39,850 nucleotides of DNA. Origin: an uncultured Verrucomicrobiales bacterium. Its GTDB lineage: Bacteria; Verrucomicrobiota; Verrucomicrobiia; Verrucomicrobiales; Akkermansiaceae. A program made the position numbers and the translations under genes. The notes beneath the pieces were generated by a model. The model ran no database searches. It saw only the letters and a list, made by a program, of their open reading frames with translations, and had not been told where the DNA came from. Numbering within the stretch: the stretch's first letter is position 1; every line of letters starts with the position of its first letter. This document shows positions 17,041-39,850 of the stretch, piece after piece. The stretch spans positions 1-39,850 of the forward strand of contig CALGZA010000049.1 of NCBI GenBank assembly GCA_937934595.1. Direction: 5' to 3'.

Positions 17041-17844
17041 CTAGTTACAGCTACGCTTACGGCGTAGAGCTAATGCGAATAATCCCAATGAACTAAGGAC
17101 TACGGATGTTGGTTCAGGCACGCTAATAAGCGTCCTATCTCCCGTGATAGTTATCAAATCCCCTTCTGAAGAAGGATCAATGTTAGTCAAAGTCAAACTC
17201 CTTAACATTGAACCTGTTTGCGATGAAAACAGAATATCTGGACCTGATCCGTCTACCTGGACTGAGGTCAATGTTGCTGAAAACACACCTGGTGTGGTAG
17301 TGTTAGCAAAATCGAAAGTACCTTCTCTTACGTCAAAATTAAAATCAGATACATCACTAGCCGCGGAGCCATCCAAAAAGTTAGCACTAAAGTTAAAAAA
17401 GTATTCCTCATCTAAAATAGTGTCTGAAGTCGAACTAGTGTCTATATCTATCAAACCAATCCTAGAAGATATAACTGAATGATTAACCAAGTTAGTAAAA
17501 GCTAGCTCACTCCCCAAATCTAAAGTAGCGCTTGAAGGAAAATCGCTATCTCCTGAATCCCAAAAAGTACCACGTATGGCAGAATTTCCTAGTGTATCAA
17601 TGACGGAACGCATATTCTCAACAGATGCCAGTCCAAGACTCCCAGTGTTAGGATCAGAAGATGCAAAGAACGTCCTATCATCAGCACTAACTGCTGTCGA
17701 AGTAGTAATATTGAACTGACCAGGTAATCCATTAGTAAATGGATCCCCCGCATTAAAAATCTCTAGCACAGACTGTGAATGTGAAATACTAGTTACCGAT
17801 AGAAAAACCAAAATAGTTTTATTTAAATAATTTATTTTTTTCAT
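17041..17844 (-). CDS. PEP-CTERM sorted secreted protein, copy A
   Basis: A 267-residue secreted protein: signal peptide (residues 1-23, ending in ISHSQ), a beta-rich Asp/Ser/Thr-rich body, and a C-terminal sorting signal VPEPTSVV followed by a hydrophobic helix and RRKRS. This tail is recognised by exosortases (EpsH/XrtA family), which cut at the PEP motif and anchor or release the protein; no exosortase gene is in the window. It is clearly paralogous to the gene at 18082 (same length, shared GLPGQF, SADDRTFFASSDP, NHSVISS and TPGVFSATLTS). The function of the body is unknown. No Shine-Dalgarno sequence precedes the ATG. Confidence 0.85.
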   Translation of the reverse strand: MKKINYLNKTILVFLSVTSISHSQSVLEIFNAGDPFTNGLPGQFNITTSTAVSADDRTFFASSDPNTGSLGLASVENMRSVIDTLGNSAIRGTFWDSGDSDFPSSATLDLGSELAFTNLVNHSVISSRIGLIDIDTSSTSDTILDEEYFFNFSANFLDGSAASDVSDFNFDVREGTFDFANTTTPGVFSATLTSVQVDGSGPDILFSSQTGSMLRSLTLTNIDPSSEGDLITITGDRTLISVPEPTSVVLSSLGLFALALRRKRSCN

Positions 17845-18081: not shown

Positions 18082-18885
18082 TTAACCTCTCTTACGTCTA
18101 ACAGTCAACGCAAATAAACCTAGTGAACCAAGTATAACTGATGATGGCTCCGGAATAGGCGCTAGTGTCCTATCAGCAACAATCGCTACCAGATCACCAC
18201 CTCCAGAAGGGTTTATATCTGTAAACTCCATACTTCTTAATAAAGAACCTGTACTAGATTCAAATGAAATACGAACACCATCAACCCCAGTAGATGACGT
18301 TAGCGTAGCTGAGAACACTCCCGGAGTGGCAGTATTAACAATATCAAAAGTGCCGTCGATAAATGAAATGTTAAAATCACTAACATCTGTGGCAGATGAT
18401 CCGTCAGCGAACGCACCACTAAAGTTAAAGAAATACTCATTTTCGTTTATTAAACCCTCTGTAACACTCGTATCTATATCAACGAAACTAATACTGGATG
18501 ATATCACGCTATGATTAGCCAAGTTAGTAAAAGCTATCTCACTACCCATATCCAGTGAGAAACTTGATGTACCACTCACGTTAGGCTCTCCTGGATTAAG
18601 GAATGTAGCCCTCATGGTGCTACCTGCATTTGAACTGGTGAGACTACGCAAATCAGTAGATGACAAAGAGCCCAAACTCCCTGTTGTAGGATCAGAAGAA
18701 GCGAAGAAAGTCCTATCATCAGCACTACCTACAGTAGTAGGTGATACAACAAATTGCCCTGGAAGACCAGTCTGGAATGGCTCACCCGCGTCAAAAACTT
18801 CTACGATGTTCTGTGCGTTTGCTAACTGTATAGAAGCTGCCGCAGCTATTACAGTGTTAATTAAGTGTGTGTTTTTATTTTTCAT
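18082..18885 (-). CDS. PEP-CTERM sorted secreted protein, copy B
   Basis: A 267-residue tandem paralogue of the gene at 17041, same domain plan: signal peptide to about residue 24 (ending in QLANAQ), beta-rich body beginning EVFDAGEPFQTGLPGQF, and C-terminal IPEPSSVI, hydrophobic helix, RRKRG. Duplication followed by divergence is evident because substitutions are spread along the whole length. It presumably needs an exosortase encoded elsewhere. A role at the outer surface or in an extracellular matrix is typical of the sorting class, but the body has no assigned activity. Confidence 0.85.
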   Translation of the reverse strand: MKNKNTHLINTVIAAAASIQLANAQNIVEVFDAGEPFQTGLPGQFVVSPTTVGSADDRTFFASSDPTTGSLGSLSSTDLRSLTSSNAGSTMRATFLNPGEPNVSGTSSFSLDMGSEIAFTNLANHSVISSSISFVDIDTSVTEGLINENEYFFNFSGAFADGSSATDVSDFNISFIDGTFDIVNTATPGVFSATLTSSTGVDGVRISFESSTGSLLRSMEFTDINPSGGGDLVAIVADRTLAPIPEPSSVILGSLGLFALTVRRKRG

Positions 18886-30284: not shown

Positions 30285-30356
30285 GTTTCAAAAATTACTG
30301 AAAGTATCCTAAAAACACAAGTAAAATAACAACACCACAAGCGAATAGAACAACTC

Positions 30357-30563
30357 ATACCATTTGAACTGTTAGAATGGATTGATAGCACAACAAGATA
30401 GCAAGAGTAGCAAGGCAAGAGGAAAGCGCATAGTAGACTATGCAACTGACGAATAACGAAGCTAATCTTGATATATTGTTTTGCACTTTAATAAATCAGC
30501 TCCGCTGCTCTTTCCAAATAGATTGAAACTACTATCAACCCCGAATAACTATGAAAATGGTAT
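30357..30563 (+). repeat. Full copy 2 of the 207-bp foldback repeat
   Basis: Complete element in the 333-bp divergent spacer 30285-30617. Ends ATACCATTT / AAATGGTAT are perfect 9-bp inverted repeats inside a longer imperfect one (32 positions, 23 matching by hand count). Inside are two further complementary arms (30389-30411 and 30461-30483, 19 of 23 matching) and a perfect central hairpin (GCATAGT, AG, ACTATGC at 30428-30443). No coding capacity. It is roughly 90 percent identical to copy 3. Resembles a MITE or other non-autonomous foldback element; flanking direct repeats are not evident. Confidence 0.9.
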
Positions 30564-30617
30564 CAAAACCACAAAACCACTATTGGCGAAACATCACCCA
30601 CCTGCTAAAACCCGCAC

Positions 30618-39365: not shown

Positions 39366-39571
39366 ATACCATTTGAACCGTTAGAATGGATTGATAGCAC
39401 AACAAGATAGCAAGAGTAGCAAGGCAAGAGGAAATCGAATAGTGGACTATGCAACTGACGAATAACGAAGCTAATCTTGATATATTGTTTTGCACTTCAA
39501 AAAATCAGCTCTGCTACTGTTCCAAATATATTGAAACTACTATCAACCCAAAATAACTGTCAAAATGGTAT
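39366..39571 (+). repeat. Full copy 3 of the ~207-bp foldback repeat
   Basis: Same architecture as copy 2: ATACCATTT at the left end, AAATGGTAT at the right. Its central stem has a mismatch (GAATAGT against ACTATGC, 39437-39452) and it is one base shorter. It lies between the convergent ends of the small membrane protein and the DUF1980-type gene; its last base is also the last base of that gene's TAA stop (39573-39571), so insertion may have set the end of that gene. Confidence 0.9.
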
Positions 39572-39850
39572 TACTTAGACAGCCCCTCACTCCACTCACC
39601 CTCTGGAACTGATATCTCCTCCACCCGCTTCACCTTCAAAAGAGGATAAACCACCCCATTCTCACGCTCATAACTCATAATACCAGCAACCCTTACCCAA
39701 CTATTATGTCCAATGTCAGGCGTCTCCCCATCAAACTCTATCGTCATCGGAACAGCCTGAGCATCCGCCGCACAACACGTCATCATCAGCCTAAACAACC
39801 GCATCCGCCTCCCATTCACATTCCGCTTAGGCTCATTCCTTAACTTCGCC
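39571..39850 (-). CDS. C-terminus of a DUF1980/TIGR03943-type protein, cut by the window edge
   Basis: The reading frame is open from the window end to the stop at 39571; a GTG at 39819 is not needed as start. The visible part has MTCCAADAQAVPMTIEFDG, SWVRVAGIMSY and YPLLKVKRVEEISVPEGEW. A CCAADA motif followed by WV.V.G is the signature of the soluble C-terminal domain of the YcgQ/TIGR03943 family, usually paired with a permease-like partner, possibly in metal handling. The upstream part and partner are outside the window. Confidence 0.75.
   Translation of the reverse strand, partial: AKLRNEPKRNVNGRRMRLFRLMMTCCAADAQAVPMTIEFDGETPDIGHNSWVRVAGIMSYERENGVVYPLLKVKRVEEISVPEGEWSEGLSK

Follow-up and report, generated by a model that had tools for sequence, protein, structure and literature searches.

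A family of small non-autonomous transposons with a covarying predicted fold in Verrucomicrobiales, and its orientation lock in two genomes

The repeat studied here, found three times in a stretch of 39,850 nucleotides from an uncultured bacterium of the Verrucomicrobiales (below called the window), is a non-autonomous transposon (MITE): a 205-bp unit without any open reading frame (ORF) of 80 amino acids or more, having inverted ends and a target duplication and residing at many unrelated sites. We consider it rather probable that it represents an order-wide family of folded elements moved in trans by a transposase of the IS630 group, with the fold being selected during propagation and with an orientation lock that may be driven mainly by loss of copies. 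This explanation rests on no expression or mobility data.

Results

The element and its copies in the window

The repeat had originally been delimited as 207 bp at positions 30357–30563, with two further copies at 1–137 and 39366–39571. All three copies were recovered, each on the + strand, with copy 1, which is truncated by the beginning of the contig and covers model positions 70–207, now extending over 1–138. Copy 3 (39366–39571) is 206 bp long with flanks TAA and TTA, thus differing in the middle base. For copy 2, the sequence, its ends and the target duplications refined the earlier boundaries to a mobile unit of 205 bp that runs from TACC (from 30358) to GGTA (to 30562), with target duplications TCA on the left (30355–30357) and TCA on the right (30563–30565), as supported by the same-N statistics of 66 copies given below. 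The repeat had also been described as free of ORFs, which holds for 30357–30563, where no ORF of at least 80 amino acids overlaps; copy 3 shares one base with an ORF at 39571–39819.

The predicted folds reproduced the features named in the original prediction, with ATACCATTT/AAATGGTAT ends, an imperfect stem at the termini, another pair of arms further in and a hairpin at the centre. Based on the fold predicted with the genus alignment, the terminal imperfect stem has its left arm (helices 1 and 2) at 30357–30388 and its right arm at 30532–30563, while the inner covarying stem (helix 3) joins 30391–30411 with 30461–30481, with 17 of its 19 pairs having changes on both sides. The 48-nt core (AAGGC..GAGGA..hairpin..GACGA..AACGA), which has order-wide relatives, occupies 30412–30459 and has tandem G.A motifs flanking a covarying base pair, and a side hairpin, CAGCTCCGCTG, is predicted at 30497–30507, all of these parts being given for the + strand. 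Folding of both strands, proposed earlier as a check, gave z-scores for the window copy at 30357–30563 of −3.4 (+) and −3.75 (−) as RNA, and of −3.8 (+) and −2.6 (−) as DNA.

Two separate observations were made in the same window. Its GC skew was about −0.15 to −0.43 per 4 kb despite ORFs on both strands, and two adjacent ORFs of 267 amino acids on the − strand (17041–17844 and 18082–18885), about 65–80% alike in DNA blocks, are a tandem gene duplication.

Copy number, ends and target duplication in the source genome

The source genome (G000), a 3.15-Mb draft in 123 contigs, belongs to the same genus as Rubritalea profundi of the Verrucomicrobiales, placed at NCBI in the Rubritaleaceae. A DNA search of this genome gave at least 42 matches (40 of 115 candidates scored), and pattern searches on both strands found 42 places with exact TACCATTT...AAATGGTA ends and 75 places with the central 34-nt stretch at no more than three mismatches, with zero matches in either control. 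Profile searching of the fetched stretches yielded 110 hits, a set that leaves out one (E 0.058) of the 15 hits of one search, and merging of these left 103 copies or fragments, spread over 55 contigs, in agreement with the earlier inference of many copies genome-wide. Both model ends were reached by 75 of the 103, comprising 71 copies of 180–235 bp, one of 249 bp and three internally deleted copies of 66, 106 and 126 bp; the copy on C42 is a remnant of 27 bp. The flanks differed from copy to copy for most copies, with those of C103 and C112 being identical over 91 bases and a left flank being common to C2, C52 and C119, and some of the 103 may be counted twice at contig ends. Either an absence of further copies or their confinement to one segmental duplication would have refuted the original prediction, and with 55 contigs and mostly individual flanks neither was the case.

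Among the full-length copies of the first set, a T was found at −2 in 64 of 66 and an A at +2 in 65 of 66, and in 55 of these 66 copies the left and right flanks agreed in the middle base N of the resulting TNA, compared to 28.4 expected (0 of 20,000 permutations). Equal flanks included TCA/TCA three times and TGA/TGA once, and the middle bases were unequal in 11 copies. The T/A frame and the equal N together define an element of 205 bp, TACC...GGTA, that is flanked by a duplicated 3-bp TNA. The suspicion of a MITE-like element was supported by the terminal inverted repeats, the TNA duplications and the 103 copies or fragments, together with an IS630-family element in a relative that has matching outermost bases and with the lack of any Rfam match other than tRNAs.

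Determining the gene context of 96 hits, we found 30 in the +− arrangement, 20 in ++, 15 in −− and 7 in −+; for the other 24 a gene was seen on just one side. That +− is more frequent than −+ means that insertions are commoner between converging genes. With regard to ++ and −−, the element runs with or against its neighbouring genes about equally.

Covariation of the fold and conservation of the core

The genus alignment of 24 sequences had 25 of 49 pairs that change on both sides while staying paired in at least one sequence, with 174 double-changed paired cells compared to 65 after shuffling (0 of 500). Using 37 order-wide sequences, 50 of 51 pairs were found to covary, at a covariation score of 0.711 as compared to 0.220 for shuffled (0 of 500) and 0.11–0.18, at most 0.178, for slid alignments. 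These order-wide sequences had been selected with a model in which the + strand fold raises the score, so that pairing, covariation and the excess of G-T pairs are inflated; independent support for the family comes from the copy number, the ends and the duplications, which are in part external to the model. Cells with G-T pairs exceeded those with A-C pairs in the A3 set (154 versus 31; shuffled 234 and 136) as well as in the A1 genus set (86 versus 14; shuffled 107 and 49), and the + strand is therefore probably the folded strand, with folding in the cell being inferred.

The core has GANGA opposite GANGA, with the middle pair being possible in 35 of 37 sequences; the inner tandem G.A could form in 30, the outer in 20 and both in 13 of the 37. 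The distance between AAGGC and AACGC was exactly 43 nt in 30 of 62 copies, and the relaxed forms NAGGC and AACGN were found at the core spacing in 44 of the 62, in 19 of 24 genomes. Loop sequences were also conserved between families of the order. Rfam 15 at its gathering threshold gave only two tRNAs in the window and no match to the element, nor was there any Rfam match at E ≤ 1 for nine loci with order-wide copies.

Distribution across the order

A covariance model built from the 24 genus sequences, with eight candidates scored per genome, gave hits in 58 genomes (the source genome included) out of 288 from the order, representing 24 of 50 genera and six families, and most listed matches ran end to end. 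The termini of 62 copies from 24 genomes, after six loci fetched twice (L193/L217 and similar) had been counted once, were exactly ATACC..GGTAT in 30 and AGAC..GTCT in 17, with the others varying. Copies with AGAC..GTCT mostly had adjoining flanks of TA or of CTAG/TTAA, and order-wide copies with the T..A frame had the same N in 31 of 41. The fold thus occurs also with other termini and is not tied to one transposase.

Two further types of core-bearing elements were noted. Ends of GAGACTG..CAGTCTC were found at L249–L254 and L256 (G092) and at L248 (G262), mostly with CTAG or TTAA on both sides, which suggests that a related core is served by a different transposase group in this type; R. profundi carries a further subtype at L160 4488–4535 (−), having ends TACCACTTAG..CTAAGTGGTA, that the genus profile search had not reported.

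An exact core pattern, which misses many copies including those of the source genome, was found in five genomes of a phylum-wide draw of 387, all within the order, with zero matches for the reversed control. Among named genomes an exact core pattern was seen only in Rubritalea profundi SAORIC-165 (G005) and an uncultured Rubritalea metagenome-assembled genome (G002), both placed in the own genus. As a separate observation, one 8.6-Mb genome (G052) had 28 exact matches to the pattern used for the phylum-wide draw. Plasmid and phage DNA searched with the element gave no match. A plasmid search with the core had only E values of 0.9 or above among the best 30 of 54 records, which were taken as chance. 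Viral contigs gave zero matches to the first core pattern, and the two matches to a looser pattern were the same DNA stretch twice, without the fold, and were rejected.

Constraint after insertion

Comparing 66 copies of the source genome, we found changes at 4.3% of paired and 4.9% of unpaired sites, and 291 of 332 one-sided changes broke the pair. Cells changed on both sides numbered 13 against 7.7 expected, with four of the 13 still pairing, and the core held 163 changes compared to 149 expected from the rest of the element. By region, changes amounted to 3.2% and 3.8% in the inner-stem arms, 4.0% and 4.4% in the terminal arms and 5.7% in the right part. The stem and core of inserted copies thus show little constraint, if any, although a weak one on the stem cannot be ruled out. 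Substitutions were strand-asymmetric, with G>A at 4.7% and C>T at 1.5% per site, an excess as expected for copies long resident in their current orientation.

A fold that is conserved throughout the order and yet decays almost freely in place points to selection during propagation. Selection on the fold therefore seems to act on the mobile lineage and not on inserted copies, which was found for the source genome and is a generalisation by inference elsewhere. A role as a regulatory or nucleoid-structuring repeat, raised as an alternative in the original prediction, gained no support, with paired and unpaired sites changing at about the same rate, the core not being spared and gene orientation being about equal.

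Orientation lock in the source genome

Read in the orientation of the element, the mean GC skew in the source genome was −0.32, a very strong strand asymmetry, and the skew over up to 4 kb of flank on each side was negative for 102 of the 103 copies. When only one side was used, it was negative for all 88 left flanks and for 91 of 95 right flanks. Only one of the 27 contigs with two or more copies carried copies on both strands, namely C2, which crosses a skew switch, and the single exception sits on that switch. Four core-less deletion derivatives (C14, C42, C52 and C71) keep the orientation.

Neighbouring genes do not account for this lock. Target preference was tried as its cause and rejected, since a weight matrix of the target sites puts only 63% in the orientation that was observed. 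Other repeats in the examined DNA broke the orientation rule in 20 of 71 informative pairs; of the 51 pairs that fit, many were tandem or coding duplicates.

The + strand of locked copies lies on the C/A-rich strand. If the G-rich strand is the leading strand, it is the − strand, which folds more weakly, that is found on the lagging-strand template (DNA z-scores of −2.6 versus −3.8 for the window copy). That assignment rests on convention and one ribosomal-protein operon, with rpsL/rpsG being on the G-rich strand; small-subunit rRNA was absent from the source draft, and tRNA strands gave no answer as to the leading strand. It was also noted that the skew flips sign at or next to the copies at C2:15325–15540 and C36:28104–28308, as if marking an origin or terminus, a rearrangement or an assembly joint.

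Orientation and age of copies in other genomes

Genome G040, a single contig of 3.5 Mb from another family of the order, had 25 distinct copies by the fold model after four of 29 matches had been dropped as reverse-strand shadows, as palindromic elements match both strands. These copies formed two blocks, on the − strand from 0.55 to 1.91 Mb and on the + strand from 2.34 Mb round to 0.43 Mb, fitting the skew map in 23 of 25 cases with two exceptions. The T..A frame was found for 20 of the 25, with the same N in 16 of those 20.

Three genomes from the genus of the source (G001, G002 and G004) had five of seven copies with negative skew. R. profundi (G005) had no overall lock, with 12 of 21 copies negative by local skew and an 11:10 distribution by replichore; its window-like subfamily was negative in eight of nine locally and in six of nine by replichore, and its subfamily B in one of five. 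Ratios of negative to positive copies in the other genomes were 6:4 (G238), 2:4 (G043), 3:3 (G262), 4:2 (G149) and 5:3 (G092). Of 86 matches, 18 were dropped from these counts as shadows, all below 40 bits, and for G238 orientation was measured for 10 of 77 matches, shadows being included in the 77.

The mean divergence from the consensus was 1.0% for eight young copies in G238, which were oriented 5:3, and 4.6% and 8.6% in G000 and G040, respectively, which were both locked. The two youngest copies of the window-like subfamily in R. profundi had values of −0.02 and +0.06, and four older full-length copies were all negative. Young sets being open and old sets locked fits a loss of one orientation; numbers are, however, small outside G000 and G040, and lineage differences would look alike.

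A possible transposase partner

An intact insertion sequence (IS) in the relative G016 has ends TACCATTTGATTAAT and flanks TAA/TAA, and its protein of 357 amino acids matched the IS630-family entry NF033545 at 179 bits (cut-off 100) as well as DDE_3. G004 has a full-length IS630-type ORF of 358 amino acids between TACC ends (flanks TTA/TAA) and G031 a two-frame one (flanks TAA/TAA). Likeness of the MITE to these three elements was limited to the outer bases. The source genome holds a decayed transposase remnant on C53, the start of which resembles the element end at about 23 of 30 bases by eye and thus more closely than do the ends of the IS630-type elements in G016, G004 and G031; one of its three pieces matched HTH_32/HTH_29 and the other two matched nothing. 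With one 61-aa piece of this remnant as the query, the source genome gave the remnant itself and two weaker IS630-like pieces but no intact matching element, and a plasmid protein search with one piece of the IS remnant gave no match. For an autonomous element with the same ends, to be looked for according to the original prediction, the candidates are an intact IS sharing the outermost bases in a relative and a decayed remnant in the source genome.

The rule for the IS630 family is a 2-bp TA target duplication. This was not met here, as the element duplicates 3 bp TNA, and the TNA duplication is thus a departure from IS630. Three IS630-type elements with TACC ends (L173 1276–2419, which carries the ORF matching NF033545, L180 and L181) had equal flanks in two cases, and their duplications seem to be 3 bp TNA and not TA.

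Discussion

In the explanation that we propose, a transposase of the IS630 group would act in trans on the TACC/GGTA ends and insert the element, with mobilisation being inferred from the shared outermost bases, and every insertion would duplicate 3 bp TNA, a duplication that is itself observed. The + strand would form one long stem capped by the conserved 48-nt core with its tandem G.A motifs, on the presumption that folding takes place in the cell. Such a fold may serve propagation and be kept by selection on the propagating lineage, with inserted copies presumably decaying under little or no constraint. Copies placing the strongly folding + strand on the lagging-strand template might then be lost by deletion or trouble the fork, leaving older sets one-sided. 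That the lock comes mainly from this loss of wrong-way copies is an inference that we hold with slightly less than even confidence, the cause of the lock being unproven. For G000 it would require that no wrong-way copy survived, which is asking much, subfamily B of R. profundi leans the opposite way (four of five), and young exceptions are predicted, yet the two exceptions in G040 diverge by 6.4% and 10.9% and are not its youngest copies.

Other causes of the lock must be weighed against such loss. With a draft in 123 contigs, several of which have a boundary within a copy or beside one, it could be suspected that the lock is an artefact, produced by assembly or by detection that is biased by composition. 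We find this hardly credible when all 88 left flanks and 91 of 95 right flanks agree if taken by themselves, when G040 shows two blocks within a single 3.5-Mb contig, when other repeats break the rule in 20 of 71 pairs and when the pattern searches, run on both strands, gave no control match. Segregation motifs show replichore-wide polarity, and the similar polarity in G000 and G040 could be taken to reflect a polar host function, such as a fork barrier, a segregation signal or a terminator, with wrong-way copies being selected against. Stem and core nevertheless decay with few if any signs of constraint, the core-less derivatives on C14, C42, C52 and C71 keep their orientation, an overall lock is lacking in R. 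profundi and G238 and neighbouring genes lie with or against the element about equally, all of which makes a host function improbable. Strand-specific insertion, in which the transposase complex would tell the left from the right end and be guided by the replication fork, for example through the sliding clamp, remains a tentative possibility. It would agree with the near-complete lock in G000 (102 of 103) and G040 (23 of 25) and with the left and right ends being different, and the 63% predicted by the target matrix makes the lock no by-product of target composition; Tn7 with TnsE and clamp-interacting transposases with an orientation bias are known, as far as the available part of that source goes (PMC5371812). 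In G238, however, elements whose ends are of the same kind and which also have TNA duplications are unlocked (eight young copies, 5:3).

The fold itself could also be regarded differently. An ordinary IS630-derived MITE might have had its arms kept complementary not by selection but by template switching from arm to arm at replication, i.e. quasipalindrome correction, with the core merely inherited. This correction is a known process, described in yeast in the part available of PMC3820800, and 13 pair cells changed on both sides compared to 7.7 expected; still, only four of the 13 pair, pairing is lost in 291 of the 332 one-sided changes, loops are conserved across families of the order and G-T pairs are far above A-C pairs, and we judge the idea unlikely. 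It is also conceivable, though doubtful at present, that the tandem-G.A core and the covarying stem make up a long-lived selfish module swapped among several kinds of transposon ends within the Verrucomicrobiales, which as folded RNA or single-stranded DNA would act at or near the fork, promote its own spread and cause the orientation lock.

Returning to the family of propagation-selected, IS630-mobilised elements that we propose, its closest counterparts are MITEs derived from IS630/Tc1-mariner, such as RUP and Correia. Those are likewise short, without ORF found, mostly intergenic, provided with inverted ends and a target duplication, and share outermost bases with an IS630 transposon, but they duplicate TA instead of a 3-bp TNA, whereas we here find an internal fold and core order-wide, also with other termini, and a replichore lock in two genomes. 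IS200/IS605 elements lack both inverted ends and target duplication, which are signs of DDE-type insertion; as the present element has both, membership of the IS200/IS605 type was rejected. The resemblance to those single-strand transposons lies in the foldback sequence and in an orientation following replication, the latter also being shared with Tn7 via TnsE and with clamp-interacting transposons, and the accessible part of PMC5371812 describes replication-tied orientation bias for Tn7 and IS200/IS605 and reports it for several IS families. Tn7, however, brings its own targeting protein, while here young G238 copies are unlocked and the lock may arise by loss. REP/BIME sequences with RAYT transposases also form many intergenic palindromic copies, but judging from the portion of PMC2817692 at hand REPs are much shorter than the present 205 bp with target duplication. 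The terms 'orientation' and 'replication' were both absent from the main text of a 2024 review of prokaryotic MITEs (PMC10969869). Among the titles and abstract beginnings listed from the open-access literature, nothing fitted this repeat or a MITE having a folded, covarying core.

The usual view of MITEs is that of short-lived relics whose identity lies in their ends. Here it is the inside of a MITE that lasts, with a fold and conserved loops found order-wide and with several termini, under little visible constraint once inserted, which suggests that a small transposon is capable of evolving its own functional fold. Moreover, a nearly absolute lock that is present in two genomes from different families and absent from a young burst provides a direct way to ask whether replication decides where such elements land or which of them survive.
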